Shown: positions 2,986-54,634 of the stretch, piece after piece
Position numbering within the stretch: position 1 is the first letter of the stretch
How the letters are laid out: each line of letters begins with the position of its first letter
IMG/VR virus record: IMGVR_UViG_3300007960_000028
Location: 1 to 56,204 of that record
DNA length: 56,204 nucleotides
Source of the DNA: a virus
Direction: 5' to 3' (one strand)
Position numbers and translations under genes: made by a program
The notes under the pieces: generated by a model
The model's database searches: none
Told to the model about the DNA's origin: nothing
Seen by the model: the letters and a program-made list of their open reading frames with translations, nothing else

Positions 2986-5900
2986 ATGAGTTTAGCTATA
3001 TATAATTTATTACAACAAGGATATTTAAAATATTCATCTGATATAAATACAGATTTTTTTAATACAACGCATGACTTGGAATTAGTTTATGGTGAAAATG
3101 AAAATATGGAAGTTGGATTTTCTATTGAAAAAAATAACTATGTATCTAAAGTAGGGATTTTAACTTTTAATGTTCAAGAGATAGTACCAAAATTAAAAAG
3201 TATAAACTCAACAGAAGTTACAATAAATATACCGTTAAACTCATTAGTATATAAAAATAAAAATTTACCAAATGGCGTAAGTAATGTTTTATATATAGCA
3301 AAATACACAAAAAATATATCAAAAGAAACTCTATATACTGATTTAAATGGTATAATATCATCTATAGAAAATTCAAGTATAAATTTAGATACGTATGCGG
3401 TATATAATGATGAAATATTATGTGAATTAAATCATTTAGATGGTCAAATAAATAATAATTTATCAATAACAATTAATATAGAAGACTTAGATGTAACGAA
3501 AGATTTGCATTTAATAGTATTTAATGATTTTATAAAAAAATCAATAGATATTTCGGATAAAGAATTATTTGGTGATATGTCATCAATATATACAGAAATA
3601 TCGGTGGATGATAGTCAATATATATTTAATCTTACTTCTAGTTATTCTGCGTATAGCAATTGCAATAAATTATTTGCTTATGGTACTGATGAAAATCCGT
3701 ATCTTCATGTATATTCTTATGATAATGATACATATTTAACATCTAGTGTAACGATAGATTCAAAACCAACATCACCAATAAGTAAATTACAATTTACAAA
3801 GGATAGTTCAAAATTATTCGTATTAACAAAACAAGATCCTTATTATAAAATATACACTATATCTAACAACACATTAAATGATGGTCTTTCTATTGGAAAC
3901 GAACTACCTACACAAGAAGTAGCAGATATAGCAGTTACATCTAATGGTTCTTCTATATATTTAATGTCTGCTAATATAGGTACAGTTATACGAAGATATA
4001 CTTTAAGTGGAAACTCTTATACATTAACATCAACCAGAACTTTACTTGATAATGATGAAAATATATATAGATCTATGGAATTAAATGAAGATGATTCTGT
4101 TATTGCATTGGCATCTATTGATAATGGTTTAATATATAATATAGATAACGGTAATATATCCGACGTAAACACAACTTATATAGATACTAATATACAGATA
4201 TTTGAATGTTTTAAATTTAAATGGTCAACAACCAAAAAATATTTAGTTGTTAATGGTATTATGGCATATTATAATACAATATTAAATGGTAATGTTCATA
4301 TATTAAAAAAGGATGGTGATTCATATAAATACCTAACAACTATAACGGATGCATCGGATATGTATGATATAAAATCAATCGATTTTGATTTAGAAGATAC
4401 ATGTATGGTTTTAGGTGGAAATCAATTGCTAAATAGTGATTTTAGAACCGAGTATAGTACGGAAATTAGAAGTTTTAATATAGATAACGATGTATTTACA
4501 TTGCAAACCGATTACTTTAAAGATATAAATTCAGAATTTTTAGATATATTTAATGGTATAGGTGAAGTAACATCATGTGATGTATCTCCAAATCAAATAT
4601 ACATATCGGCAACATCAAAAACACAACCATATTTACATATATTTAGTTCTAGTGAAAAGTATATAGATTCTTATAATTTATTACAATCAAAAATAACTGC
4701 TAGTATTAGTGTGGATTTTGTTGAAGACTTTAAAACCACTATAAATACGATATATAGCTCTCATAGTTATGTGGATTATACATCAAGCAATATAAATGAT
4801 ATATTAGATACCAATCCTTCATTAGCTTATAGTAGATATAGAGTTACAAAGGATGATGATGTTTTACGTGTTGGTATGTATGCTGATATGAATTCTAATT
4901 TAGAACAAGATTATTCAAATAAAGTTGCACAATTACATTTTGATACTAGAAATTTAAATTTATTTGGGAATTTGGTATCTGCAAAACTATCATTTCATAT
5001 AGATAAAAACACAATACATAAAAGACCAAGAGGATTCTTAGATAATGTTTCAAATAAACTTATAGTAACTAAATTAATAAACAATACATCAAATTATCAA
5101 GCAGTTAGTAGTTCTATAACAAGCGAAATAGTATCTAGTGCTAGTTTAGATCCATATTTCTATTTTACAGGTAATAAAACAAATTATTATGACGCAATAG
5201 CTATAAGCACGGAATCCATTGAAAGTTCTTATATAGATATATCTAATATAAATCAGTTAGGGGTTACTAGTTTCTCCTTATTCATAGATAGTACATACAA
5301 ATCATCTAATTTTAGTAGTTCAGAATTAAATTCTAACGGAAATATAGTTTCATATAGTCTATATAAAGAATATGATACATTTAATACAGATTATAATACT
5401 ATAATATCATCTATTGTAGAAACAGATTTAAATAATGAAATAATAGTATCACAAGAAACATTCCCTACATTCTATACAGCAACATCTAAGGTATATTATC
5501 ATGATTCTGCTAGTCAAAATATAATAAATATAACGAATACATTAACATCTAGTATTATGCCGGGTTCTATGAGTAAAATGGCTGTATCACAAGATGGCCA
5601 ATGGTTAATATATGATAGTGGATTAATGAATCAAGAATTAACTAGAAGTATATATAATGAAAATAATACATATCATAAAAATATAAGCAGATCAAATTTA
5701 ACAGATAGAAAAGTATCTGACAGAACTAAACTATCGAATGATAATTTATATGTTTTATATGAAGGTTTTGCTAATCATGATAGTTATGTATGGAATTTAT
5801 CCAATTTAACACAATACAATCAAACTGATGGTAAAGTACCTGGATTTTCATTATACTCTATAAACGGAAATTCTCTTAGTTACTATACATTACCGACTTA

Positions 5901-8900
5901 TAGCGCATATTATTATAATGGCAATTTTAGTAATGATTCTTCTCAATTAGTTGTATTAAACAATCTTGATGTACCTATATTGTTTGATTTAGAAAATAAT
6001 ACATATGATAAATTATATATAAAGAGTAGAGAATATGGAATGTCACAAGAAAGTTCATATATAACAAATGGTTATTTCATAGATAATAGCAAAAACATAA
6101 TATTTGGTATGAGCAGTAAAGATAATCAAATGTTTAAAAAGAACTCAGCGTCAGCATCTAACTTTACAGTAGATGTACCTGTTAGTAGTTCTAATTTTAT
6201 ACATACATCTAATATATCAAATCATATATTAGTAGGTGATATATCTGGAAGTGAAAAACATGTTAAGTTATATAAACACAACTATAATAATGATACATTT
6301 GAGCTAATACCAAATCCAACTGAGATAATATCAGAATCTATATCTATATCATATAGAAATAATATACTTGCATTTGCACATAATAGTGTAGATAAAATTT
6401 ACATATATAGTCAATCAAATGATTCATTTACAAAATTAAATACACCTACATCATTACCATTAGGTAATATGAAAGATATACAATTATCCAACGATTCCAA
6501 ATATATGGTTGTTACTACTGATACTAGCCCATATATGTTTGTATATAAAAACACATCTAATATATATGAGTTAAAAGAACTAGACGTAACACCAACCACA
6601 GAAATAAGTTCATTTGGTATATCATCTGTTTTAAATATAGGTAATGGTGATTTTGATGTATTTCTACCATATATATACTCTGGTAGTGCAAATACATTAT
6701 ACACTTATAAACTTAACTCTATAACTGATAATGTTGAATTTGGATATACTGCTAGTACAGGTAATCGTATCACCAATCCACACAGTATAAATGATTCTTA
6801 TTATTGGAAAGATATAAAATGGTCTAATGATAATTCTTATTTTTATATGATAACTATGGAGAAAACCGTAGATGGAGATGAAACTAGAGGAGTTAGATAT
6901 TTTGAACCATCATATTATACTAATCCATATACCAAACAATCTGGCTATGCAATTAAAGAATTACGGGATAGAGTATCATATTATGCAACACCATCTAGTT
7001 ATAAAACATATGATAGTTATGATGTAGCTCTAAATCATTACCCAAACAAAATAAATTCGGCACATAAATTACCTGAGTATGTAGTTACTCGTAATTCCGG
7101 TTTAAACATGGATGTTACTATATATAATGATGAATTTAATTCATACGACGATACAACACAGTATCGTTATCTATCACGTACACATAGAATATATTATAAT
7201 TCTGCATCTGAAATTACGAATACTCAATCCGTAGAATATAAATTTTCATATGATGATAGGTATATATATGGAGTATCGGAGGTATCTCCTTATTTCACTA
7301 TTTATAATAGAAATTCTAAACCATATAATCCTGTTTATATATATTCAGAAAACCAATTAATAAGAGATTATAATTCCGATCCAAACCCTAAGTTGAATTT
7401 TTATAAATATTATCCAACCTCATCATTAGCGTCTATAGATGGTTATAAATTTACAAATACAAATAATGATTTTGTAGTTTATGGTATGGGTATATCGGAA
7501 ACATCAGATCCAATAGAAGCATTTAGTGTTAATACAAGTTCATATCATTATGAATTTACTAAAATAGATAATTATATAGATACTACACAATTACAAGGAA
7601 AAACTGTTATTAAATTATCATATACATCCGATGATAATAGATTACTGGCTCTATGTAATGATAAATCCAATATATTTTTATATTATTATACTTCATCTGA
7701 AACTGGTTATGTTTATAATCAAACTATAAATACTATACCGATTAAAAGCAGAGGAACCTATAACTTAGCTGATGCAAATATATCTTCTGATGGTTCATAC
7801 GCTGTATTATGTGCATATGGCAATACTAATACTATACATACATATCAAATAAACGATGAAAATGTTGTTACCGAATTAGATAATATATGTAATACCATAG
7901 ATAGAGTTACATCAGCTGACATCTCAATTACCGGTTCATTTATACCAAATACAAGATATAATGATTCATTTACGAATAAAACATCTGGTAAGGGAGTATT
8001 GGTTTTATCCGATATAAATGGTTGGTTAGAAAATAAATCTGTTTTATTACAAAGATACAGTAGTTCATTTACTACTGAAAGTTTCTCTTTAATAGCAACT
8101 TCAAGTTATAACCTATATCAATCAAACGTATTTGATTATAGATTTAATCCTATAAATAATTTACTAAATGAAAAGTTTTATTCTTTTTCATACGATAACA
8201 AATTATTATCTGTTGTCAGTTATAAAACTGATTGTGAAGGAAATCAATCTACAACTGATGTGGATATATTTGAATATATAGAAAATGAAAATAAATGGGA
8301 TATATATGAAAGTTATAAATCAGATACATCTAATATATTAAGTTTAGACTATAAACCAACATCAGTATCATATACAAAGTTCCATCCATCAATGCCTTTA
8401 TTGATATGTATAAGTTATGGTATAAATAAAGGTATATCTGTTTATAAATTTAAGTCGTATTTTGATCCACAAGATAACCCAACATCAGATGTACCTGGTA
8501 TTATGGAATTAGTATATAAAGGAATATTACCATCAGATTATAATGGAATATTAGTAAGTAATATAGTATTCTCAAATGATGGAAAATACATGATATTACA
8601 TTCATCTGTAGGTAAAATATATGGATACAAAATAACTTGGGAAAATAAAAGAACTCCTATTATAACAGAATTAGATAAAGGATATACTGAAGATGAGATA
8701 GATTTAGGATCAAAATACTCTGCATTTTATAATAGAGATATACTTAATGGAAATCAACAAGTTGCATCTTTTATAAATGATACAGAATTTGTTATGCCTA
8801 TATTACAAAGTGGATCATTCTATGATGGTGACTTTGATTATAACGGAACAAATATACCATTACAAGCATCATCAGTTAAAAACTATATATTTTATATAGA

Positions 8901-11900
8901 TGAAAATGATACAATACAATTAAAATATGAAACAGTTGAACCATATTTTATAAATGATACATTGCCTAGTTACTACAACAATCAATACTTATCTCAAAAT
9001 ATAAACAATGTGTCTTTAGTTGATATATTTAATACATCATTAAATAAAGATTATATATTTCATACTGCATTGTATCAACCAAATAGCGATTTACCTGATA
9101 TACAAGACGCATATCTAGTTTCTGGTTCAAGAATATTATATAGACATAAAGCATTTGAAAATTATCATATTATTGAATTTCCAAAAAGTAACTATATAAG
9201 TTTAGATTTAGAATATCAACCTGTAACAGAACCTACAATATCTATAAATGCAACTTCTTATGGTTATATAGAATATTCATCTTCAAATGTAAATGATATA
9301 TTTGATGCTACATCATCAATAGATTATTATATATATAGTCAATCAGAAACTATAAAATCAGGATTGTCATATGAAGGTGGTGTTTATACAGCTAATGTTG
9401 GTTATATATCATTCAATACATATACAGTAGCAAATAATGTATCTCCTACAAAAGTTAGACTTGTATTTGATATAAATGAAGATTCTTACTCATATAAACC
9501 AAAAACATTCCCTAACGGAGTTGATAACTACTTAAATCTAGTATTTTATAATTATCCATTTGCAATAGAAGATATTAAAGGTTTAATATCAACTATAAAT
9601 CAAGCACATAGATCAAGTTATATAACTTACATAGAAGAAAATAATTTATGGATTAGACCTATAGTAGTAAATACAAAGGATTTAGAATCAGATTCTTCTA
9701 GTAATATAGACACTCAATTTAGTTATCCAGATACAGAATTAAATTATACTGTTGGTGTAACAGATAATGGTAAATTCTACGTAGATATAGAAGATGATAC
9801 ATTAATAAATAAAAAAGGTCATACCAATATATTATTCTATATAGATCATCTATATAAACAACAAGATTTTGATAATCAAGTATTAACGGATAGGTCATTA
9901 TCTTATGGTTTAAAATATTATAATGGAAGTATAATAAATAAAACATATATAGAAAGACCAAAACATATTAAAACTGGATTGAATGAATCTGTTATAGTAA
10001 TACTATCAGAAGATCAATCTGTATATAGTTTTTATAGATCGTATGGTGGTGATATTCATACAAATGTATTTCAAAGTTTTATACCATCAATAAATGCTAA
10101 TTCAACTTATATACATTTAAGTGATTCATCTAGATACTTATCTGTATGCGATTACTTAGTATCAGCTAAAGTATTTTATAGAACTGATAATAGTTATAAA
10201 GAGATACCTATTATATATGCAAATATAGATAGACCCGTATATTGTCATATAAGTGATGATTCCAATTATTTACTAATAGTTCAAGAAACATATCCAAATA
10301 TAATATTAGGTATACAATCATATAGCGATAGAGTTGTTTTTAATTTTAAAGATGATAGAGTGGTTGAAAATTCTATAACTGGAGTAATAAATCCATATAA
10401 AGCCGTAGATATGAGGAATAATGTTATTGTTATAGGAACAAATAATGGAGTTTTAGTATATAAAAATTCATCTAAAGGATATTCAAAAGATATAATGACA
10501 TTCGTAACTACAAATTATAATAGTGCATCTAATATATCTATTACCAAATTATCAACTAATAACTATTTAGCTATTGTAGATGAAAATACAAATAGATTAT
10601 TTGTATTTTATATATCTGGATTTACAGTAACAGAAATATTTGATTATACGTTTAATGGTGCTGTAACCGATATACTATTTTTAGAAAACAATAAATATAT
10701 AGCAGTATCATCAGTTGAAGATCCATATATAACATTCTTCGAAATAAACGGATCCGATGTAAGTTTAAAGAATATAAAATTTGATATAGATATAAATGAA
10801 CCTATATACGCTATGTCTTTCTTAAAAAGTGCAAATAAATTATTATTGGGTGCAAAAGATAATAATTTTGAATTAGAAGTTTCTACTGGATATTCTATAA
10901 ATAGATTTAATGGTATAAATGATTTACCAACGGGATTAGGAACTGCAGTTGATTTTTCTCATAATGATAAATTTATGATTGTTTCTCATGAACAAAGTCC
11001 GTATATAACAGTATATTATGTTACTGATACAGAATATATTAAAATATCAAATGGTAACTTCGATATATTACCTAGTTCAACTGCTAGATGTGCAGCATTT
11101 TCAAGAGATAATAACTATCTTTTAGTTGGAACCGAAGCTGCTCCTTACTTACATATATATCAAGTAAACGATAATAATGAAAATACAACATTTACTTCAG
11201 TTTCATTACCATCAAATCCATTTACAAGTTTTATAATTAATATAGATTTTAGTTATAATGGAAATTATGTTATATTTGCAACATCTGAACAAGGTATATT
11301 AGGATATTCATATTCAAATGGTACATTAGGAACTGCTATGACAATCAATATACCGGTTACAGGTTATGTTTCCGAAACTCAATTTTCACCTAATGATAAT
11401 TTTGTTGGTGTAGCGATGGATAATAGTCCTTATGTTAGATTTTATAGTCATTCAAATGGAATACTAACAAAATTATCAGATCCACAAACAATTCCTACTG
11501 CAAAGGCAAGAGATATAGCATTTACAGAAGATGGAGTAAATGTATTTATAAACTTCCGGCAAAATCAAGGTATAATTGCTTACAAATATAATGGAACTAA
11601 ATTTGAATCTGATAATATACTATCCGAAACCATCGGTTCGGGTGTAGGTCAAGAAATGATATTATATAACGATAGAACTTTGATAACTGTTATAGAAGGA
11701 TCTTCTCCATATATCAAAACATATGTTCAAACTAATAATATATACGAACCATTATATCCAAATCCATTTACAGATATAACAGGAGATGCATTTGGTATAT
11801 CAAAATCAAATAATGGTAAGTTTATAGCAATAGCACATGATTCTGCTCCATATATAACAGTATATAAGGTAATATCCGATTCTTTACTTTTAAAATCATT

Positions 11901-13722
11901 TGATATAAAACCATATACATATACATTACCTGATGGAGATGTCAAATCAATAGCAATATCAAATGAAGATGATTATGTAGCTATAGCTAGTTCACAAGAA
12001 GATTATATAGCATTATATAATTCAATCGATGGCAATATAACTAGATTAAAATCACCTGATAGTCTGCCAACCGGACAAGCAACATCGATTGATTTTTCTA
12101 AGAACGATAAATATATAGCGATTGGTTATCAAACTAGCCCATATATAAACGTATATAAATTGAACAAATCAAATCACAATACAACTTTATTGAATATAAA
12201 TTATGCATATAACAATGAAATAAATACAGTTGCATTTGATGAAGGAAATAAATATTTAGCTATTGGTAATAATACAGCACCATATATTCATATATATGAG
12301 GTAAATAATATTATAGATCAATTCAATATTATACTAAACGAACCATCTACTTTACCAACGGGAATAGTAAATTCTATTGCATTTTCGGATAATAACAGTT
12401 ATATGGCAGTTGGTTATAATATACCTCCGTATTTATCAGTATATAGTGTAGATAGAAACACAAATTCATTTACAAAATTAGAAACTATAACTGAATTACC
12501 TATTGGTAATGCTATAGACGTGACATTTAGTTCTGGAAGTGAATATTTGTCTGTTACTCATGAAAACTCACCATTTGTAAGTCTTTATCAAGTTAATAGT
12601 ATAACAGATGAATTTACAAAAATAGAAGATCCAGATACTTTACCTATAAATCAAATAAAAAGTACTACATTTATATCTAATTATCTATATCTAAATAGTG
12701 ATGTTGCACCATATAATCATTTATATAAATTAAATGATTATGATAAACCAACTAATATAACAGATAGACTATCTATACCAAACGATCCATCTATAACAAG
12801 TGAAATATCTTCTGATGGTAATTATTTAGTAGTTGGAACAAATACTTCTCAAACATTAAAAGTATATAGTTTAGATTACTCGTATACCGACTTTAATAAT
12901 TTATTAATATATGAATTAAACGGTGATTTTATAAATCATCATAAAATATCATTTGATGTTGGGGATGATACATCTTTAGACTTCTTATTTGATACACCGG
13001 TATATAATAAAATACAAAATATAACACCATCATCTATTGGATATGTTTCATTTAATACAAGCGATTTAAATGATTTTATTAATAATAATATATCATATAC
13101 TTTAAATAAAGCATCCGATGGTAGTGTTAATTTTGAAAATTCAATAGGTAAAGTTGGTAATTCTTATGTTGGATCTATAGGTATGTTTTCAGTTGATATA
13201 ACTAAGTTTAAATCTGCTCAGTCCGTAAATTCTATGAATATCAAATTGGATATTACGCCTGAAAATACATCAACAACATCATCATACTATGCATCAACAG
13301 GAAATAATAAATATTATCTTTATGCTTACGTTGGTAACGTAGATTCTGATAATGTAAATACAGTTATATCTAATATACTATCTAATCCATCGTTATATAA
13401 AGTTGGTGAGATAGATTTAGACGATCAGTTTGTATATCAATCACAAGATTCAGTTGATTATAATGGAGTAAATTATTATGATAAATCTATATATATTGAT
13501 CTAGATAAATCAAAATTAACATATTCAAATAATGTAACTATATTTTCATTCCATCATTATATATTGGATAAAAATACATTTGCTGCTGAATTACCATTAG
13601 AATCTAATATAGATAGTTTATTTTCATTTACAATGACAGAATTTGATAGTATATCTATGGATTTATACTTGAATTTTGTTAGAGGAATATTACATCAATT
13701 GAATAAAAAAGATATAGTGTAG
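2986..13722 (+). CDS. Giant repetitive beta-propeller protein (3,578 residues), probable virion-surface protein
   Basis: The only convincing rightward gene in the window. A ~190-residue module with the signature G-Y-(I/L)-x-YSS...F(D/N)xT starts at about residue 10 and recurs near 595 and 2090; a more diverged copy lies near 3345. Between the copies are long runs of beta-propeller blades of about 45 residues, marked by '(S/A)PY(I/L)xxY' strands, 'LPxG' turns and 'FSxDxxY(L/M)' strands. The block at about 2310-3300 is the most regular. The N-terminus and blade style match the two leftward giants at 13754-21819. There is no signal peptide or membrane helix and almost no Cys. A structural or adhesion role is inferred from size and repeats, not from a recognised family. 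Its stop codon lies inside the terminator stem. Confidence 0.85.
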   Translation: MSLAIYNLLQQGYLKYSSDINTDFFNTTHDLELVYGENENMEVGFSIEKNNYVSKVGILTFNVQEIVPKLKSINSTEVTINIPLNSLVYKNKNLPNGVSNVLYIAKYTKNISKETLYTDLNGIISSIENSSINLDTYAVYNDEILCELNHLDGQINNNLSITINIEDLDVTKDLHLIVFNDFIKKSIDISDKELFGDMSSIYTEISVDDSQYIFNLTSSYSAYSNCNKLFAYGTDENPYLHVYSYDNDTYLTSSVTIDSKPTSPISKLQFTKDSSKLFVLTKQDPYYKIYTISNNTLNDGLSIGNELPTQEVADIAVTSNGSSIYLMSANIGTVIRRYTLSGNSYTLTSTRTLLDNDENIYRSMELNEDDSVIALASIDNGLIYNIDNGNISDVNTTYIDTNIQIFECFKFKWSTTKKYLVVNGIMAYYNTILNGNVHILKKDGDSYKYLTTITDASDMYDIKSIDFDLEDTCMVLGGNQLLNSDFRTEYSTEIRSFNIDNDVFTLQTDYFKDINSEFLDIFNGIGEVTSCDVSPNQIYISATSKTQPYLHIFSSSEKYIDSYNLLQSKITASISVDFVEDFKTTINTIYSSHSYVDYTSSNINDILDTNPSLAYSRYRVTKDDDVLRVGMYADMNSNLEQDYSNKVAQLHFDTRNLNLFGNLVSAKLSFHIDKNTIHKRPRGFLDNVSNKLIVTKLINNTSNYQAVSSSITSEIVSSASLDPYFYFTGNKTNYYDAIAISTESIESSYIDISNINQLGVTSFSLFIDSTYKSSNFSSSELNSNGNIVSYSLYKEYDTFNTDYNTIISSIVETDLNNEIIVSQETFPTFYTATSKVYYHDSASQNIINITNTLTSSIMPGSMSKMAVSQDGQWLIYDSGLMNQELTRSIYNENNTYHKNISRSNLTDRKVSDRTKLSNDNLYVLYEGFANHDSYVWNLSNLTQYNQTDGKVPGFSLYSINGNSLSYYTLPTYSAYYYNGNFSNDSSQLVVLNNLDVPILFDLENNTYDKLYIKSREYGMSQESSYITNGYFIDNSKNIIFGMSSKDNQMFKKNSASASNFTVDVPVSSSNFIHTSNISNHILVGDISGSEKHVKLYKHNYNNDTFELIPNPTEIISESISISYRNNILAFAHNSVDKIYIYSQSNDSFTKLNTPTSLPLGNMKDIQLSNDSKYMVVTTDTSPYMFVYKNTSNIYELKELDVTPTTEISSFGISSVLNIGNGDFDVFLPYIYSGSANTLYTYKLNSITDNVEFGYTASTGNRITNPHSINDSYYWKDIKWSNDNSYFYMITMEKTVDGDETRGVRYFEPSYYTNPYTKQSGYAIKELRDRVSYYATPSSYKTYDSYDVALNHYPNKINSAHKLPEYVVTRNSGLNMDVTIYNDEFNSYDDTTQYRYLSRTHRIYYNSASEITNTQSVEYKFSYDDRYIYGVSEVSPYFTIYNRNSKPYNPVYIYSENQLIRDYNSDPNPKLNFYKYYPTSSLASIDGYKFTNTNNDFVVYGMGISETSDPIEAFSVNTSSYHYEFTKIDNYIDTTQLQGKTVIKLSYTSDDNRLLALCNDKSNIFLYYYTSSETGYVYNQTINTIPIKSRGTYNLADANISSDGSYAVLCAYGNTNTIHTYQINDENVVTELDNICNTIDRVTSADISITGSFIPNTRYNDSFTNKTSGKGVLVLSDINGWLENKSVLLQRYSSSFTTESFSLIATSSYNLYQSNVFDYRFNPINNLLNEKFYSFSYDNKLLSVVSYKTDCEGNQSTTDVDIFEYIENENKWDIYESYKSDTSNILSLDYKPTSVSYTKFHPSMPLLICISYGINKGISVYKFKSYFDPQDNPTSDVPGIMELVYKGILPSDYNGILVSNIVFSNDGKYMILHSSVGKIYGYKITWENKRTPIITELDKGYTEDEIDLGSKYSAFYNRDILNGNQQVASFINDTEFVMPILQSGSFYDGDFDYNGTNIPLQASSVKNYIFYIDENDTIQLKYETVEPYFINDTLPSYYNNQYLSQNINNVSLVDIFNTSLNKDYIFHTALYQPNSDLPDIQDAYLVSGSRILYRHKAFENYHIIEFPKSNYISLDLEYQPVTEPTISINATSYGYIEYSSSNVNDIFDATSSIDYYIYSQSETIKSGLSYEGGVYTANVGYISFNTYTVANNVSPTKVRLVFDINEDSYSYKPKTFPNGVDNYLNLVFYNYPFAIEDIKGLISTINQAHRSSYITYIEENNLWIRPIVVNTKDLESDSSSNIDTQFSYPDTELNYTVGVTDNGKFYVDIEDDTLINKKGHTNILFYIDHLYKQQDFDNQVLTDRSLSYGLKYYNGSIINKTYIERPKHIKTGLNESVIVILSEDQSVYSFYRSYGGDIHTNVFQSFIPSINANSTYIHLSDSSRYLSVCDYLVSAKVFYRTDNSYKEIPIIYANIDRPVYCHISDDSNYLLIVQETYPNIILGIQSYSDRVVFNFKDDRVVENSITGVINPYKAVDMRNNVIVIGTNNGVLVYKNSSKGYSKDIMTFVTTNYNSASNISITKLSTNNYLAIVDENTNRLFVFYISGFTVTEIFDYTFNGAVTDILFLENNKYIAVSSVEDPYITFFEINGSDVSLKNIKFDIDINEPIYAMSFLKSANKLLLGAKDNNFELEVSTGYSINRFNGINDLPTGLGTAVDFSHNDKFMIVSHEQSPYITVYYVTDTEYIKISNGNFDILPSSTARCAAFSRDNNYLLVGTEAAPYLHIYQVNDNNENTTFTSVSLPSNPFTSFIINIDFSYNGNYVIFATSEQGILGYSYSNGTLGTAMTINIPVTGYVSETQFSPNDNFVGVAMDNSPYVRFYSHSNGILTKLSDPQTIPTAKARDIAFTEDGVNVFINFRQNQGIIAYKYNGTKFESDNILSETIGSGVGQEMILYNDRTLITVIEGSSPYIKTYVQTNNIYEPLYPNPFTDITGDAFGISKSNNGKFIAIAHDSAPYITVYKVISDSLLLKSFDIKPYTYTLPDGDVKSIAISNEDDYVAIASSQEDYIALYNSIDGNITRLKSPDSLPTGQATSIDFSKNDKYIAIGYQTSPYINVYKLNKSNHNTTLLNINYAYNNEINTVAFDEGNKYLAIGNNTAPYIHIYEVNNIIDQFNIILNEPSTLPTGIVNSIAFSDNNSYMAVGYNIPPYLSVYSVDRNTNSFTKLETITELPIGNAIDVTFSSGSEYLSVTHENSPFVSLYQVNSITDEFTKIEDPDTLPINQIKSTTFISNYLYLNSDVAPYNHLYKLNDYDKPTNITDRLSIPNDPSITSEISSDGNYLVVGTNTSQTLKVYSLDYSYTDFNNLLIYELNGDFINHHKISFDVGDDTSLDFLFDTPVYNKIQNITPSSIGYVSFNTSDLNDFINNNISYTLNKASDGSVNFENSIGKVGNSYVGSIGMFSVDITKFKSAQSVNSMNIKLDITPENTSTTSSYYASTGNNKYYLYAYVGNVDSDNVNTVISNILSNPSLYKVGEIDLDDQFVYQSQDSVDYNGVNYYDKSIYIDLDKSKLTYSNNVTIFSFHHYILDKNTFAAELPLESNIDSLFSFTMTEFDSISMDLYLNFVRGILHQLNKKDIV

Positions 13723-46010: not shown

Positions 46011-46552
46011 TCAGAAATAATCTCCTTAACTTTTAACCTTAACGTATCCATATCAGAATCATTATTTATTACATAATCAAAATCATCATATGAATTATCT
46101 AAATCAATCTCTGATTGGTGTTCGTCATTTGGTTTTTCATAACCAATATAAGAAGCATCGACTCTTATTATAACACCACCACGTTCTTTTATAGATTGCA
46201 ATTCATCTTTAAATCTAACATCGGATATTATCCAATTATTATATCTTTGAAATTGAGAAAATAAAGATTTTACCCATACATCTTTTGTAAAATTATCTCT
46301 AAATACCTCTGTTCCAACTTTTTGTAACATATACCTAACACTCATATCCCAATCGGTTAAAAAATTATTTTTATTTTCGTCTTTTAAAAAATACTCTACC
46401 GGTAATCCTGTTAGTATAGAGCATATATGTTTTAAATTATATGCAAACGATTTTATTTCAAAATTTTCATTTAATTCTTGTTGTAATATAATAGAAACAG
46501 TATCTTTACCAGATCTCTTTTTTCCTGACAATCCTATTAAATTATATTTCAT
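45998..46552 (-). CDS. Deoxynucleoside monophosphate kinase (T4 gp1-like)
   Basis: A 184-residue P-loop kinase: 'LSGKKRSGKDTVS' (Walker A 10-18) closely matches T4 gp1 'LSGVKRSGKDT'. 'MLQKVGTEVFRDNF' and 'WIISDVRFKDE' are the substrate and lid regions of the same family, and 'NDEHQSE' follows as in gp1. It phosphorylates dNMPs for phage replication, working with ThyX and dUTPase. It overlaps the gp62-like gene by ATGA. Confidence 0.88.
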   Translation of the reverse strand: MKYNLIGLSGKKRSGKDTVSIILQQELNENFEIKSFAYNLKHICSILTGLPVEYFLKDENKNNFLTDWDMSVRYMLQKVGTEVFRDNFTKDVWVKSLFSQFQRYNNWIISDVRFKDELQSIKERGGVIIRVDASYIGYEKPNDEHQSEIDLDNSYDDFDYVINNDSDMDTLRLKVKEIISEWQS

Positions 46553-47001
46553 TTCTTAAATTCCTTGATTACTTTATTTATTTCTTTATGGTCTACATTA
46601 GAATATGCCATTATATTATATAACTCATATTCAATATCTTTAGAATTTACTATTATATTGTAATAGTCAATTGCGACCAAATCAGAACATTTATAATATT
46701 TTTTTATCCAATTAACAACTTTACCTTTTACAGAATCATTCTTTGTTTTAGATTTAATATATTTTATATATCCAACTTTTTTTGGAAGTAAGTTTTGTAA
46801 TACTCTATATTTAGATTCATTATCCATATATAAATCTGTACCTAAACAGATGTTATTTATTATAGGTAAATAAGATATATCCATAGATAATATCCTATTT
46901 ACCATATAAAAAGGAAAGGATGACATCTCTAATGAATCTATATCACTATAAGGAGTTTTATTACTCGTTAGATGTTGTATCGCTTTGCTTGGTTCCACCA
47001 T
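46549..47001 (-). CDS. Clamp-loader small subunit (gp62-like)
   Basis: A 150-residue protein. 'SSFPFYMVNRILSMD' followed by 'PIINNICLG' is the pattern FxPfxvNRxLS...p..N of T4-type gp62 proteins. 'NLLPKKVGYIKYIK' then matches their lysine-rich 'Ll..vpKrk.ygKW' region. In T4, one gp62 joins four gp44 to load the clamp. Position next to a gp44-like gene supports this. It overlaps the zinc-ribbon gene by 41 bases. Confidence 0.72.
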   Translation of the reverse strand: MVEPSKAIQHLTSNKTPYSDIDSLEMSSFPFYMVNRILSMDISYLPIINNICLGTDLYMDNESKYRVLQNLLPKKVGYIKYIKSKTKNDSVKGKVVNWIKKYYKCSDLVAIDYYNIIVNSKDIEYELYNIMAYSNVDHKEINKVIKEFKK

Positions 47002-47243: not shown

Positions 47244-48197
47244 TTATTCCTGCGTTAAAAATGAACAAAACATACTCATTACGTTAATTTCTTTATCAAT
47301 AACATAGTAATCTTGATATTGATATTGATTTAAAATTATAATATTAGTAGATAAATCACCTTGTATATTATCTATATTGGTATATAAATATTTATATAAA
47401 ACCTCAAAATTAGTAATTCTAAGATCGGTTATTATCTGCCTAATCTCTTTTATTTTATCATTAGGTTTCTTTTTAGAGTTCATAATGGATATAATATCAT
47501 CAAATTCACTTTTTCTTTTAATTTCTGATTTTGATGGTAAATATTTTCCATTGATACATTTAGACCATATAGAAGTTATTGTAGAACGTATATCTGGATA
47601 TTTTTCATTTATTATACCTACAATACTATGTAATGTAGATTCATCGTTTATATCATACTCTATATTTTCAGAGTCTAATATATAGATGATTCTATTCATT
47701 ATATCTTCTTTTGGTGTATCATCTATATCGTAGCTAACAAATCTAGATTTAATAGATTGTAATATTTTTTCAGAGTGGTTGCAAGTTAATATAAATCTAA
47801 CATTATCACTATATAATTCTATAATATAATTTAAAGTTTCTTGATTTTTAATAGGTATACTATGAAATTCTTCTAATAATATTATTTTATATTTTCCTTG
47901 TGGTGCAGAATTACAGAATGGTAATATTCTATCTCTAATTCTATCTAATCCACCTTTCTGCATCTCATCTGCAGCATTGATTTGCATATAATCTTTGCAT
48001 TTCAATTCATTTATAACCATTTTAGCTAATGTGGTTTTCCCTATACCAGGAGAACCACACAATAGCATATTAGGTATATCTTCTCTTTCTATTATATTAG
48101 ATATAACTTCTCTAAATTCTTCACTACAAATATAATCTTTTAATTCTCTTGGTCTGTATTTTTCAGCCCATATAGTTGTATTTTCTCTATATTGCAT
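47244..48197 (-). CDS. Clamp-loader large subunit, AAA+ ATPase (gp44/RFC-small-like)
   Basis: A 317-residue protein with the RFC box 'WAEKYRPREL' (10-19), Walker A 'GSPGIGKTTLAK' (48-59), sensor-1 'FILTCNHSEK' and the SRC-like 'SIKSRF' arginine finger. The Walker B is 'ILLEEFH', with Glu in place of the usual Asp. It hydrolyses ATP to open and load the phage clamp on primed DNA. It overlaps the HTH-phosphoesterase gene by one base. Confidence 0.93.
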   Translation of the reverse strand: MQYRENTTIWAEKYRPRELKDYICSEEFREVISNIIEREDIPNMLLCGSPGIGKTTLAKMVINELKCKDYMQINAADEMQKGGLDRIRDRILPFCNSAPQGKYKIILLEEFHSIPIKNQETLNYIIELYSDNVRFILTCNHSEKILQSIKSRFVSYDIDDTPKEDIMNRIIYILDSENIEYDINDESTLHSIVGIINEKYPDIRSTITSIWSKCINGKYLPSKSEIKRKSEFDDIISIMNSKKKPNDKIKEIRQIITDLRITNFEVLYKYLYTNIDNIQGDLSTNIIILNQYQYQDYYVIDKEINVMSMFCSFLTQE

Positions 48198-49588
48198 TAT
48201 TCTAAAATAATTGGGTTATACATAGTTCTTCCACGTAAGCTATCTATTACAAATAGATTTTGTGATGGTTTTTCAAATTCAGCCTTTATACTTATAGCAT
48301 AAGGATTCCATCCAATAAGAGAACCATTAATAATAAATGATTTTCCTAATAGAGATTGATGAAAATGACCAAATACATCCAATGAAACATTTCTAATTGA
48401 TTTATTCCAATTATTTATAGCTTTATTGATAGGTATAGTTGGACCACCTACACCACCACCATATCTAATAAAGTGACCATGATGGAATCTAGTAATTGTT
48501 CCATAAATATCTAATATAGTGTGAATACCATATTGTTGATGAAATTTTATAAACTTATTATTAGAAAATTTATCTCCTAATACATGATACATATATTGCT
48601 CCAATGAATTTCCTAATTCGGTAGATATTCTCTGTTGTTTTGTCATTCTACCATGATTTCCACTAGAAGTAACTATTTCAATAGGTAACTGTGTTTTATC
48701 AGATATAAATTCTATTGCACCTGCAAGTTTATTTTGAACATGTATAATTGCATCCGTTGGAAGTAAAGAGTTTGATTCTGCTAATTCATCATGTATATTA
48801 CCAGTAATAAAATCTCCACCTAAATGAATTATAATTTTCTTAGATTTATATGGTTCTTTTATAGTATCTATAATTCTAGCGGAATCATTTAATAATTGAT
48901 TTATTCTTCTTTCAGCAATTTCTAAATTAAATTCATTCAAATCATTTACAGCATGACGTTTTACAACTTCCTCTATATGCCAATCAGACCATTGAAGAAC
49001 TATTGCTGATTCTCTACCTTTTATTATAGATGGTGTAGTCTTAATTACTTTCGGAGAATACGAACTTTCTAATTGTCTTTTAATTTTAGACTCTTCTCTG
49101 AAATTGTCTATTTCATCTAATAACTTTTTATTTTTTGTTTTTAAAATATTATTTTCTTTCTCTATCTTTTTAAGTTTTAACTCATCATCTACACTATATT
49201 CTTTAGTTTTATCTTGAAATACTTCATCTATTACTAAATCTAAATCTGGTTCTGAGTCATATACATTTACATCCGAAATTTCTTGTTTTTTTGTAATATA
49301 TTTATCATACCACACACTAACAGTAATATGTTGTATTCCATATTTAGATGCTACCTTATAGATCATATCTGGATTTTTAATTTCAGATAATACTTTCTTT
49401 TTAAATTCCTTAGTATATCTTACATGTTCTCTATTGGAATTTAATAATCCATTTTTAAATTGAGTATGCCAATTTTTAATGGTGTGATCCCCACCAATAC
49501 CATACTTTCTATTTAAATCACTTATAGAACTTCCATTCATAAGCTCAGCAACAACTTTTCTTTTAAATTTGTTACTATATTTTTTCAT
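48197..49588 (-). CDS. Double-HTH, coiled-coil, calcineurin-like metallophosphoesterase fusion
   Basis: A 463-residue protein. Two transposase-type HTH units lie at about 1-50 ('SNKFKRKVVAELMNGSSISD', 'KYGIGGDHTIKNWH') and 55-100 ('KEFKKKVLSEI...KVASKYGIQHITVSVWYDKY'). A charged coiled-coil segment (about 135-175) links them to a phosphoesterase: D202-W-H204, G258-D259, G310-N311-H312, His369/370/372, and GHFH 407-410, so all metal ligands are present. Mre11-type nucleases have this fold, but here GNHD is GNHG. Located between clamp and clamp-loader genes, it is a candidate DNA-targeted nuclease or phosphatase of replication. No transposase catalytic domain exists. Confidence 0.85.
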   Translation of the reverse strand: MKKYSNKFKRKVVAELMNGSSISDLNRKYGIGGDHTIKNWHTQFKNGLLNSNREHVRYTKEFKKKVLSEIKNPDMIYKVASKYGIQHITVSVWYDKYITKKQEISDVNVYDSEPDLDLVIDEVFQDKTKEYSVDDELKLKKIEKENNILKTKNKKLLDEIDNFREESKIKRQLESSYSPKVIKTTPSIIKGRESAIVLQWSDWHIEEVVKRHAVNDLNEFNLEIAERRINQLLNDSARIIDTIKEPYKSKKIIIHLGGDFITGNIHDELAESNSLLPTDAIIHVQNKLAGAIEFISDKTQLPIEIVTSSGNHGRMTKQQRISTELGNSLEQYMYHVLGDKFSNNKFIKFHQQYGIHTILDIYGTITRFHHGHFIRYGGGVGGPTIPINKAINNWNKSIRNVSLDVFGHFHQSLLGKSFIINGSLIGWNPYAISIKAEFEKPSQNLFVIDSLRGRTMYNPIILE

Positions 49589-49599
49589 ATAAAACCTTT

Positions 49600-50406
49600 T
49601 TATTTTTTAATATATGGTAATAAGATATATTTTGAATGTATATCTTCACTTTTAAAATCAAAGAATATAGCTGATGCTGGAACATTATCGTTTTTATATG
49701 CAACTATATGACTTACATTCATATCATTAGCTATAGATTTATTAGTTTCTATAATTTTTAAGAAATATAATGCATTAAATTCATTATCATCATTATTTTT
49801 TCTTCTCTTATCAAATAAATCAACATATTCATTATTTAATACCAATTCAACTTCACCGATATAATTATCAGAGTTGAATTTGATTATATTCTTATCTTCT
49901 GTTTCATTATTTAATATACTAATAGTGTCTGGTTTAAAAATACCATATAATTTTGATATTTGAATTATAAACTCATTATCCATAGGTATAGTTAATGTAG
50001 GCTCAGGTATAGAATTCAATGGTCTCTCTTTTAAATTATCATTTATCTTATCGGATTTTACACCTAAAGTAAATTTAATTTTTCTTTTCGAATCCTTTAC
50101 TATAAGCATATATGGATTGTTAGTTATATTATTATATTCTAATTCAAAACTAAACTCATCATCCATTATAGCTATAGTTTTTCTTATATCTTGTAGATTT
50201 TGTAATATCAATTTACCACTAAACCCATCAATAATACCGTGATTATATGTGGTATCTATTTTAAAACTGGTATCTACAATACCTCTCACTAATATATTTG
50301 CTGAGTTTTCATTTACGGTCAACTCACAAACATTATGCTCATCATTTATCTTCCCCAATAGGAATGTATCTAAATACTTAATAAATGAATCTCTATTTAC
50401 GGACAT
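49600..50406 (-). CDS. DNA polymerase sliding clamp (gp45-like)
   Basis: A 268-residue strand-rich protein, length close to T4 gp45 (228) and PCNA (about 260). Two similar halves are suggested, and 'VELVLNNEYVDLFDKRR' and 'HIVAYKNDNVPASAIFFDF' fit clamp beta strands. No short diagnostic motif exists in this family, so the call rests on length, fold pattern and its position: first gene of the unit (P8), followed by gp44- and gp62-like genes, with a DNA polymerase gene next upstream. That matches the T4 order 45-44-62. Confidence 0.72.
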   Translation of the reverse strand: MSVNRDSFIKYLDTFLLGKINDEHNVCELTVNENSANILVRGIVDTSFKIDTTYNHGIIDGFSGKLILQNLQDIRKTIAIMDDEFSFELEYNNITNNPYMLIVKDSKRKIKFTLGVKSDKINDNLKERPLNSIPEPTLTIPMDNEFIIQISKLYGIFKPDTISILNNETEDKNIIKFNSDNYIGEVELVLNNEYVDLFDKRRKNNDDNEFNALYFLKIIETNKSIANDMNVSHIVAYKNDNVPASAIFFDFKSEDIHSKYILLPYIKK

Positions 50407-50474: not shown

Positions 50475-50480
50475 TAAAAA

Positions 50481-51842
50481 TTAATAAAAATCAGAATAAT
50501 CTACTATTGGTTTTATTTTTTTATTATTTTTATTAGTAGATTTTTTATTTATATAAAGTTTATAGGATGATATTCTATCATTTGATATTTTGTAATACTC
50601 TTTATCTTGTTCCATACCTATAAATCGAAATCCTTCTATCATAGAAGCTATTCCCGTACTACCACTACCCATAAATGGATCTAAAATAATACCATTTGGT
50701 GGAGTAACTAATCTAACCAAATACTTCATCAATTCAATTGGTTTGACAGTTACGTGATTGTTATTATCGGTTCCAGTGTTCCTTTCTTTCTTAGATACCT
50801 TTGCACAATAAAAAAATCTAGATGCAGATCCTTCATCGCCAATTGTTTCTGATAGTGGGTAATTTACATCAAATTTACCATATATTCCATTAGGACTACC
50901 ATTTGTATGCCGTGTATGATTATCATTCATAATTCCTGATTTAGTGTATGGAAATAATTCTTCTACCTCATCAGATCCATCATGTATAATATTTGATGGA
51001 AATCTTCCTTTATTATAATCAACTTTATCGGTAGAACCATACTTTCCAAATATATCACTATCAACTTTTCTACCATTATTACGGGCACCACTTATACCAA
51101 CTCTACATTTACCAATATTTATACCACCAACTCCCCATTTAATTACATTTTCTGCTATTGTATTTTCTGAAATTGGTTTTTGTGCTAATATTATGGGTTC
51201 CATTGCAGGTTTTAATTGAGTATTCCAATCATAATATAATTTAGCAAGTTCGGTTGCTAGTTCAGTTTCCATTAAACTATGTGGTTTTTTCGAATATCCC
51301 CATTTATGACTATCTATCGCAGTTTCATTTATAGTTTTGTGTTTATTTGGGTCTCTATTACAACCATCATAGGTTGATATTTTTTTACCAATCACCTTTC
51401 TTTCGGCATTATAGTATTTATCTATGGATTTATCTATAGACAATCCCTTTGGCATACCCGAACCATAAATCCAAGCTATAGTATCTTTTATATAAAATCC
51501 TGAGAATCTTATAGCCATAGACATCCAATCTTGTGTTCGTGTACCAGAAAATACTAGTATATGGCCACCTGGTTTTAATACTCTATATATTTCTTTCCAA
51601 AATATAGGTTGTGGTACAAACGAATCCCATTCTTTACCCATAAATCCACCACCACTAACATTATAATACCCATCTTTTAACCAAGAAACCATAACATCTT
51701 GTATGTTAGGTGGAGTTCCTAGTCCATACGGAGGATCGGTTACTATAGAATCAATGGAGTTATCTTCTATATCACGTAATAAATCTATATTATTACCAAT
51801 AAATAACTCATATTTATTTTCACTAAATAAATTACTATCCAT
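50481..51842 (-). CDS. DNA methyltransferase (N6-adenine or N4-cytosine, beta class) with clamp-docking-like tail
   Basis: A 453-residue enzyme. 'DSIVTDPPYGLG' (DPPY 36-39) is motif IV, and 'ILDPFMGSGSTG' (388-397) is the SAM-binding motif I; the order IV then I marks the beta class. 'YRVLKPGGHILVFSG' and 'TVKPIELMKYLVRL' are also typical. No restriction partner is seen. The C-terminus is ...PIVDYSDFY, the same as the DNA polymerase end. It may modify phage DNA as it is replicated, protecting it against host restriction. Confidence 0.92.
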   Translation of the reverse strand: MDSNLFSENKYELFIGNNIDLLRDIEDNSIDSIVTDPPYGLGTPPNIQDVMVSWLKDGYYNVSGGGFMGKEWDSFVPQPIFWKEIYRVLKPGGHILVFSGTRTQDWMSMAIRFSGFYIKDTIAWIYGSGMPKGLSIDKSIDKYYNAERKVIGKKISTYDGCNRDPNKHKTINETAIDSHKWGYSKKPHSLMETELATELAKLYYDWNTQLKPAMEPIILAQKPISENTIAENVIKWGVGGINIGKCRVGISGARNNGRKVDSDIFGKYGSTDKVDYNKGRFPSNIIHDGSDEVEELFPYTKSGIMNDNHTRHTNGSPNGIYGKFDVNYPLSETIGDEGSASRFFYCAKVSKKERNTGTDNNNHVTVKPIELMKYLVRLVTPPNGIILDPFMGSGSTGIASMIEGFRFIGMEQDKEYYKISNDRISSYKLYINKKSTNKNNKKIKPIVDYSDFY

Positions 51843-51859
51843 TTTACCTTAAATTTAAA

Positions 51860-54634
51860 TTAATAAAAATCAGAATAATCAATTGTTTTTGATGGCATAG
51901 TCCATCCTATTGCATCATATATAGATTTTAATTTATTAGATAATTCACTATCATATATTTTATTAATATCTATATATTGTTTCATAAAATCTATAATTTC
52001 TTCGTATGGTTCTTCAACGGGATAACCCAATACATCTATATTAAATGGATTATGTTTCAAATAAACATATTTAATTTTATCACCTTGTTTTATTTTTCTA
52101 TATTTAAAACTAGCATTATAAAAACTCAATAATCTATTATAATATATAGCAGATTTTACCGCTACCGGTGTTCCTTTTTTAACTTGATGTATATATCTAT
52201 AGTTATCATCATCATATTCATTCATCTTTTTAATAGATGATATTTTAGATATATACTCATAATCATCTGGTCCGATTGTTTTTAATAAACCAGATACCAA
52301 TTCATTTGATTTTTCTTTATCATAATCAATCAATATAAGTTCCATTAATGTCTTTAAGTGAGTTCTAAATTTAACAGGAAATGATGATCTAACAACATCT
52401 ATACCTTTAAAATCCAATGGATCTTTTAAATTTCGTTTACCTTCACTATCAATTACATATTGAGCATATCTTTTTTTACCTAACCATAACCCACGTCTAG
52501 TTATCTTTTCTCTGTTAAATTTTAATCTGTTATTGTCAGAATTCAAATATATTTTAGAAAATGCTTCTAGTGATTCATTAATATTATCACAATACTCGGC
52601 TGCTATATTTGATAATATATCTATTTCTTCATTTGTTGGATTATTTAAATCTTTTATATGAGAATAATCATTTGGATGGAATGGTACATAACTAGAATCG
52701 GTATCGTTGTATATTACAACGTCCTCAAATCTTTCATTATTATTTATAGAATATAATTTATTAAATATGAATGATGCATATTTAATTACATCTCTACCGG
52801 TAGCAGTAACGGCTCCTGCATTTTCTAAATCATAAAATCTAAAACTCTCTAAACCTAAAACACCATATATAGAGTTAAGTAAGATTTTTTGTACTAATTG
52901 TAGTTTATCATAATATACAGATGCGTCTGGATCGTTATCTTTTATAGCTTGTTTTAATTTAGATTTATATTCTAATCTTTTATTAAACCAATCAGATAAT
53001 ATTGTTGGTATCAATCCTTTAATATCGGTTCTATACATTAAACCATTAGATGCAATTGTATATTTATTTTCTTCTATAAATTCTATAAATTCTTGTTTTG
53101 TTAGATTAAATCGTTCTTTCTGTAAGTTTTCAACAATCAATATAGCATCATCATCTATATAATTAAAATTACCAGAAAATAAAGAAAAATCTATTTCTCC
53201 ATCATGAAGAGAATTTATATAATTCATCATACCAACATCTTCCCAATTCAATATTCTACCTATTTTAGTTTCAGGTGAAATATTTAATGTTATAATGATA
53301 GACGGATATAATGATTGTAAATCGATAGAAAAGAAATATTCATATATACTTGGTTCAGGTAATCTAACATACGCACCCTCAAATGCAAGTTTTACTTCAC
53401 AACCCTCACCAAATGATTTATCTAATTCATTTTTTAAATAAAATACACCATTATTATAGTCTATATATTCATATATATCCTTAGTTGATTTTGTTCGGAA
53501 TACTCTTACTAAACCCTTTGTTGGGATACGTTCTCTATCACAATCAACATCAACCGATAAAGTATTTATACCAGAATAATGTACCATATTAGATGTCATA
53601 TTTATCTTTTTAGACTTATTTGGTGCTAATGTATTATTCTTATCCATATAACTCATTATAGCACCTTCTATAACCGCAGATGAGTGTATAAACTGTTGAT
53701 ATGGTATATGTGATACGTGACAAATTCTTCTAGTTAAATTTATAAAATCTACTTTTTTATCTAACTCGGTTATTAGCTTAACATCGACTAAGTTGTATTC
53801 TATAAATTTATTTATATCTGTTTTAAATAAAGTATCTAAACTACCTTCATATTTTATTTTACCATGACCCAATTCTTCATTAGCAACATAATCCAAAGCA
53901 TAACTAGATAATTCAGAATAAGTATAATTTTTATATAATTTCATATAGTCTAAAGATGCTACTCCAGCTATATCAACCATTTTATTTTTTTCGCTATACT
54001 TTACTATTTCAATTGGACTTAATTTTTTTACCCATTTATTACCTAATACACGGTTTATCCTAAAATATAAATATCTATTATCAAAGCTATCACTATTCCA
54101 ACCAACAACAATATGTGGTGATATAGATTTAAAATCATTTATATATTGTTTTAATAGATCAACCTCTGATTTAAAAGATATAACCGTAACATTACTATCA
54201 GCATTGTAATTTGGAACTTCGTCTGATAAAACATATACATAATATTTATCTTCTGTATGGTCATACATAGCTATAGAAGTTATAGTATTTTTTGCTTCTT
54301 CTTCTTTTAGTTCATTAGATTCCATCTCAACCTCAATATCGATAATAACTATCTTGATATTTTCGGATATAGAATCTGAATCGTTGTAATACTTTATTAG
54401 TTGCTCTATTTCAGGAGATAAGTCTATCTGTAAATAATCATTTGGATTTCCATTATACCCATCTACATTTACTACAGGATAATTATCAAACAGATATTTA
54501 TGACTACCTTTTATAGTATCATTTTTTGCTAATTTATAATAATCTTGTTGTCTTGTAAAATTAGTATATCCAAAATTATCATCCCACAAATGAACTGTAT
54601 TTTTGGATCTATCAAAATATATAGATTGATACAT
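51860..54634 (-). CDS. Family B DNA polymerase (T4 gp43-like)
   Basis: A 924-residue replicative polymerase. The proofreading exonuclease has ExoI IIDIEVE (Asp99, Glu101), ExoII 'VVGWNSDSFDNRYL' and ExoIII 'YNLVDVKL' (Tyr280, Asp284). The polymerase has motif A 'SIDLQSLYPSII' (Asp438), motif B 'KILLNSIYG' (583-591), motif C 'YNDTDS' (642-647) and KKRY at 720-723. The length is close to T4 gp43 (898). The end TIDYSDFY is a likely clamp-docking peptide. No intein is present at the usual sites. It follows dUTPase after a terminator, so it needs read-through or an unseen promoter. Confidence 0.97.
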   Translation of the reverse strand: MYQSIYFDRSKNTVHLWDDNFGYTNFTRQQDYYKLAKNDTIKGSHKYLFDNYPVVNVDGYNGNPNDYLQIDLSPEIEQLIKYYNDSDSISENIKIVIIDIEVEMESNELKEEEAKNTITSIAMYDHTEDKYYVYVLSDEVPNYNADSNVTVISFKSEVDLLKQYINDFKSISPHIVVGWNSDSFDNRYLYFRINRVLGNKWVKKLSPIEIVKYSEKNKMVDIAGVASLDYMKLYKNYTYSELSSYALDYVANEELGHGKIKYEGSLDTLFKTDINKFIEYNLVDVKLITELDKKVDFINLTRRICHVSHIPYQQFIHSSAVIEGAIMSYMDKNNTLAPNKSKKINMTSNMVHYSGINTLSVDVDCDRERIPTKGLVRVFRTKSTKDIYEYIDYNNGVFYLKNELDKSFGEGCEVKLAFEGAYVRLPEPSIYEYFFSIDLQSLYPSIIITLNISPETKIGRILNWEDVGMMNYINSLHDGEIDFSLFSGNFNYIDDDAILIVENLQKERFNLTKQEFIEFIEENKYTIASNGLMYRTDIKGLIPTILSDWFNKRLEYKSKLKQAIKDNDPDASVYYDKLQLVQKILLNSIYGVLGLESFRFYDLENAGAVTATGRDVIKYASFIFNKLYSINNNERFEDVVIYNDTDSSYVPFHPNDYSHIKDLNNPTNEEIDILSNIAAEYCDNINESLEAFSKIYLNSDNNRLKFNREKITRRGLWLGKKRYAQYVIDSEGKRNLKDPLDFKGIDVVRSSFPVKFRTHLKTLMELILIDYDKEKSNELVSGLLKTIGPDDYEYISKISSIKKMNEYDDDNYRYIHQVKKGTPVAVKSAIYYNRLLSFYNASFKYRKIKQGDKIKYVYLKHNPFNIDVLGYPVEEPYEEIIDFMKQYIDINKIYDSELSNKLKSIYDAIGWTMPSKTIDYSDFY

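Follow-up and report, generated by a model that had tools for sequence, protein, structure and literature searches.

The subject of the present analysis is a short C-terminal peptide shared by two enzymes of a T4-like phage, a family B DNA polymerase (PolB) and a DNA methyltransferase, which are encoded in the IMG/VR virus record IMGVR_UViG_3300007960_000028 (56,204 nucleotides, analysed over its full length and referred to below as the window). The window holds a polymerase, a sliding clamp and a clamp loader of the T4 type, and the methyltransferase gene sits between polymerase and clamp (Table 1). Exonuclease and polymerase domains span the whole length of PolB, as judged from Pfam, PHROG and alignment. 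In the methyltransferase the catalytic motifs read from the sequence are intact (DPPY from residue 36 and FMGSGSTG at about residue 390), and AlphaFold2 places the last helix at residues 414-440, with a predicted flexible end directly after it.

By sequence, the open reading frame (ORF) of the clamp gave no convincing match in Pfam, PHROGs, the phage collection or PDB. An iterated profile seeded with the ORF in the syntenic position of Microcystis phage Mel-JY01, on the other hand, retrieves both the annotated gp45 of KVP40 (E 7e-27) and the window ORF, whose AlphaFold2 model (predicted local distance difference test score, pLDDT, 81) is matched by Foldseek to PCNA and 9-1-1 clamps. From profile search and fold, the ORF is a gp45-type sliding clamp, as the first-pass annotation had named it. 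The clamp profile also matched weakly (E 1.4e-11) a protein of 509 residues in another contig (L101:7302-8828), a possible second, enlarged clamp in a contig that has a normal one as well.

Table 1. Replication genes, methyltransferase, shared tails and direct repeats in the window
Feature	Position	Strand	Basis
Clamp loader small subunit, gp62 type	46549..47001	-	phrog_225 E 2e-9
Clamp loader large subunit, gp44 type	47244..48197	-	phrog_168 E 7e-63
Sliding clamp, gp45/PCNA type, 268 aa, presumed docking partner	49600..50406	-	iterated profile E 1.5e-32, Foldseek probability 1.00
Direct repeat, 24 bases, copy 2 (methyltransferase tail, stop, 3 bases)	50478..50501	-	sequence
DNA methyltransferase N6/N4, phrog_67 type, 453 aa, end PIVDYSDFY	50481..51842	-	PF01555 E 1.4e-34, phrog_67 E 2e-68
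DYSDFY codons of methyltransferase C-terminus	50484..50501	-	sequence
Predicted flexible methyltransferase end, residues 441-453, pLDDT < 50	50484..50522	-	AlphaFold2 model
Direct repeat, 24 bases, copy 1 (PolB tail, stop, 3 bases)	51857..51880	-	sequence
DNA polymerase family B, gp43 type, 924 aa, end TIDYSDFY	51860..54634	-	PF00136 E 1.6e-38, PF03104 1.9e-16, phrog_262 E 4e-172
DYSDFY codons of PolB C-terminus, putative clamp-docking tail	51863..51880	-	alignment with KVP40 TLESFFG, Mel-JY01 NLSKFFNFK and TLEDFFS tails

PolB ends SKTIDYSDFY and the methyltransferase KPIVDYSDFY, each directly before its stop codon, the last six residues being common to both. At the DNA level the likeness extends to a 24-mer, GATTATTCTGATTTTTATTAATTT, which is present identically in both places on the minus strand and comprises the six DYSDFY codons, the stop and three bases beyond it. 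Both observations had been made in the first-pass annotation and are exact. No third copy of the 24-mer exists in the window with up to three mismatches allowed (0.02 expected from shuffles), and the whole-window search for further such ends that had been called for found no other DFY-ending gene, the DFY-stop pattern in the DNA occurring at chance level. Among the 1,653 pairs formed by 58 minus-strand ORFs, PolB and the methyltransferase are the sole pair with more than two C-terminal residues in common, where about 1e-4 pairs sharing six would be expected. Given the shared peptide and the AT-rich codon bias, identical codons have P = 0.11, an unremarkable value at the low GC content of this genome (26%); codons, stop and the next three bases together are identical with P = 0.003, and the tail may therefore have been copied or converted recently at the DNA level. 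The DNA match thus hints at recent copying, as weak evidence by itself.

The first-pass annotation had read the peptide as a clamp-docking tail, on the grounds that the C-terminus of T4 gp43 docks on the clamp and that similar tails serve other clamp clients. This precedent holds, since T4 gp43, gp55 and gp33 have common C-terminal tails that bind gp45 and are freely interchangeable, and the tail of the RB69 polymerase has been crystallised on the RB69 clamp (PMC2988020). The T4 ends in question are ASLDFLFG in gp43 (also written SLDFLFG) and PSLDFLYEAND in gp55. Aligned with the IDYSDFY end of the window PolB are TLESFFG (KVP40), NLSKFFNFK (Mel-JY01), TLEDFFS (cyanophage-like) and QPAVYW (L090), and DYSDFY fits the hydrophobic-x-x-aromatic-aromatic pattern as Y-S-D-F-Y. 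By precedent, therefore, an identical tail marks another protein of a T4-like phage as a second clamp client. With the clamp identified, the homologous polymerase tails recognised as clamp motifs and the covariation described below, the docking proposal is comparatively well founded, and DYSDFY is very probably a C-terminal sliding-clamp docking peptide on both polymerase and methyltransferase of this phage, as far as sequence comparison can tell.

Across lineages, the tails of PolB and of methylase-family proteins within one contig or genome are alike, though the tail sequence itself varies from lineage to lineage. Relatives were found with a PolB alignment, which was needed because the window PolB and clamp loader, used as direct queries against viral contigs, yielded no confirmed relatives. 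Examples (PolB/methylase) are QPAVYW/QPATYW in L177, with the genes about 7 kb apart, ASLEAFFG/STLEGFYD in L065, NASEWFAF/NAEKFFEF in L110, RTAEKFFSF/NANKFF in L098/L231, and TAEKFFSF with two methylases, NVKKFFKWK and KSKEFFDY, in L102. In another lineage both proteins end identically in KATLDGFF; in the cultured phage Mel-JY01, PolB ends NLSKFFNFK and the methylase (WWT39522.1) ends NIAKFFNMDKKEN (NLSKFFN versus NIAKFFN), with about 110 kb between the genes; and a weaker match pairs TLEDFFS with APLMEFFS (L086/L050). In an exact permutation test over nine lineages, which took in weak and failed pairs, the true pairing was the best of 362,880 (p = 2.8e-6), and a test on 11 pairs gave p = 5e-6. 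The matched residues use the same codon in 0/5 cases in L325 and 4/8 in L150; different codons in matched tails mean that the match lies at the peptide level and is not a matter of simple DNA repeats.

The pattern is not confined to methylases. In a scan of 3,941 ORFs from 283 loci with a PolB C-terminus, each ORF was scored against the PolB tail of its own locus and the best matches were annotated only after scoring. Most of the top matches turned out to be DNA-modification enzymes of unrelated folds, namely phrog_67 and permuted N6/N4 methylases, TET/JBP dioxygenases (PF12851) and the TET-associated glycosyltransferase (TAGT; PF20691), with the Mom protein (PF25680) and QueC/asparagine-synthase-like proteins as further cases. 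The match rates, which are upper estimates since the families were chosen via their matching members and many of the phages are related, were 7/7 for TET, 2/2 for TAGT, 3/5 for QueC-like proteins, 10/31 for permuted methylases, 5/11 for phrog_67 and 1/14 for Mom, against a background of 0.6% of 3,357 other ORFs; the family profiles behind these rates were built without the last 20 residues, except that of phrog_67, which retained them. In Melnitz, a cultured Methylophilales phage, 55 other coding sequences were compared over 50 kb with the end of PolB (TLEDFFG), and the TET protein (QZI94739.1; GNLNDFLGE) matched it best. Two proteins of no known family also copy the polymerase tail of their own contig, one of 228 residues ending GTLEDFFA (L151:3314-3997) and one of 501 residues ending TFNSLFD (L168:6748-8250), and both are candidates for new clamp clients or DNA-modification enzymes on the strength of their ends. 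A GNAT acetyltransferase-like protein (L111:6422-6952) ends IKTEQFFKY where the PolB of its locus ends KAAEQFFSFG, and may be another tail-sharing protein.

In other viral contigs, proteins related to the window methylase point to a different clamp. The bacterial beta-clamp motif QLxLF, in the variants QLSLF, QLNLF and QLTLF, forms the end of 11/67 of them and of 1/565 control ORFs (p 1e-10). The QL[SD]LF motif binds the host DnaN ring. Most contigs with QLxLF methylases show no PolB of the window type, many of these contigs being fragments, and the bacterial and prophage members of the family are mixed, some ending QLDLF, QRDLF or DLPLF and many being tailless. Among the phage methylases of L003-L082, many of which end in such beta-clamp motifs, others have YDIFDFL-like ends, maybe another clamp motif.

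The nearest relative, L096, has a PolB that is 64% identical to that of the window, ends NCNDFY and lies in the same gene order. Between its PolB and clamp (L096:12803-13141) lies a decaying methylase gene, most of which has been deleted internally and which carries a frameshift near its end. In the shifted frame the last codons of this remnant read EEYNLSNFY followed by a stop, which lies directly before the ribosome-binding site of the clamp gene. The 93-kb contig contains only two NFY or DFY stops that are preceded by more than 13 open codons, those of PolB and of the remnant, and no further DFY-ending gene was found there. Because of the frame shift, the remnant is only suggestive as support for a conserved methylase tail.

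The 24-base repeats could also be read as a recombination scar or cassette boundary, left when the methylase was inserted after polB with duplication of the polB 3′ end, so that the peptide on the methylase would be a functionless by-product. Indeed, the repeats exactly flank the methylase gene, which recombination between them would remove cleanly; the six codons, the stop and three further bases are all identical, as noted above, and in the closest relative most of the methylase gene is gone. Against this, matching methylase tails occur far from polB (in L177 and Mel-JY01) and in different codons, TET, TAGT and Mom genes also have them, and the tail of the L096 remnant is similar while its DNA is not identical. 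A mere cassette scar, retained here as a rival, leaves the matching tails in other phages unexplained, and we regard it as improbable.

Chance likeness of two aromatic, AT-rich C-termini is an explanation that a genome of such low GC content invites, the codons of D, Y and F being AT-rich; however, given how few six-residue matches are expected in the window and the recurrence of matching tails in other lineages, it is hardly credible. Short C-terminal peptides can have many roles, and the shared tail could instead be another kind of signal, such as a protease degron or a localisation or packaging signal. This is very unlikely, if somewhat less so than chance, since the tails track the polymerase tail of each phage and, in other viral contigs, take the form of the bacterial beta-clamp motif QLxLF, and since the docking of the polymerase tail on the clamp is established in T4 and RB69 (PMC2988020).

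Several observations weigh against a clamp-docking role of the shared tail, or against its generality, besides the choice of families behind the match rates. The tail pairs of L016 and L041 are weak, the methylases of the PolB-bearing contigs L204 and L205 are without a polymerase-like tail, as are many members of the window methylase family, and related phages are not independent samples. In Melnitz the C5 methylase does not match the PolB tail, and neither does a methylase-like group in PolB-bearing contigs that is characterised by SPPY and EPIFVF. (The proteins of this group, in L238-L242 and L247-L259, are about 350-560 residues long, contain SPPY and finish in an EPIFVFxKP-like sequence, and there are two to four per contig in some contigs.) From T4 itself, the alpha-glucosyltransferase, a DNA-modifying enzyme, is a reported gp45 binder (PMC13216743, PMC6024577; Sommer 2004), as a pull-down has confirmed: it brought down gp45, which the beta-glucosyltransferase did not (PMC13216743). 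This enzyme ends FCFKEQFDIITK, unlike gp43 and with no SLDFL-like end, yet it binds gp45. Promoter swaps and activity data suggested that alpha-glucosylation in T4 is not determined mainly by clamp binding, and differences in expression and activity were judged to account for most of the alpha share (PMC13216743); functional importance is therefore not to be assumed.

If DYSDFY is a docking peptide as proposed, the methyltransferase core would be followed by a short flexible end and then by the peptide, which would occupy, on the gp45-type clamp that the phage itself encodes, the hydrophobic pocket that also receives the polymerase tail. Clamps remaining behind the fork would hold the methyltransferase on newly made DNA, and phage DNA would be methylated soon after synthesis, probably as protection against host restriction. 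Physical binding to the clamp, coupling of methylation to the fork and the protective purpose are what we infer from the shared tail, and methylation coupled to replication plausibly follows. More generally, modification enzymes would bear the tail that fits the clamp in use, that is, the phage gp45 where one is encoded and otherwise, apparently, the host beta clamp. Mimicry of the polymerase tail on phage modification enzymes is apparently widespread, and we lean towards the wider reading of these ends, namely that methylases, TET/JBP dioxygenases, TET-associated glycosyltransferases, Mom and perhaps other enzymes of unrelated folds have repeatedly acquired tails imitating either the polymerase tail of the same phage or the host beta-clamp motif; clamp-coupled modification would in that case be general in phages.

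The first-pass annotation had stated that no such phage system was known. This did not hold, in view of the T4 alpha-glucosyltransferase and of the matching tails on methylases, TET/JBP and other enzymes of many phages; the idea that an enzyme of DNA modification associates with the clamp is already known from T4. In the open-licence literature, no report was found of methylases or TET enzymes bearing the polymerase's own tail, or of the general pattern, and full-text searching there turned up no article dealing with clamp motifs in the DNA methylases of prokaryotes. If the wider reading is true, a polymerase-like tail would flag new modification enzymes among proteins of unknown family. The shared tails provide a cheap sequence test, in that an ORF whose end resembles that of the polymerase of its phage is a probable clamp client and most often a DNA-modification enzyme. 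They bear directly on how phage DNA is modified fast and completely, with little left unmodified for host restriction, which is an open question for hypermodified phages. More clamp clients of this uncultivated phage may lie beyond the 56-kb record.

Elsewhere in the window, the gene between clamp and clamp loader (48197-49588) encodes a transposase-type helix-turn-helix N-terminus fused to a phage exonuclease domain (phrog_284), and L096 has a similar protein in the same position. The plus strand carries an ORF of 3,578 residues (2986-13722); nearly all remaining long ORFs are on the minus strand.

Among known systems, the closest parallel is that of T4 gp43, gp55 and gp33, in which an aromatic and acidic peptide at the extreme C-terminus, SLDFL[FY], is common to the polymerase and other clients of one clamp. 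Unlike those clients, which are the polymerase and late-transcription factors, the client proposed for the window is a DNA methyltransferase, with DYSDFY as its terminal residues. Like the T4 alpha-glucosyltransferase, it would be a phage DNA-modification enzyme associated with the sliding clamp, judging in the window from sequence; the T4 enzyme differs in its end, which is not gp43-like, in its chemistry and in that it is disputed how much its clamp binding matters in vivo. In mammals, DNMT1 has a PCNA-interacting motif (PMC9690074). It offers a likeness in function, maintenance methylation being coupled to replication via a clamp motif. DNMT1 is a eukaryotic C5-cytosine methylase, and its motif does not copy a polymerase tail at the extreme C-terminus. 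Finally, many proteins related to the window methylase family end in the bacterial beta-clamp motif QL[SD]LF, whereas the window phage encodes its own gp45-type clamp and bears the aromatic motif instead.

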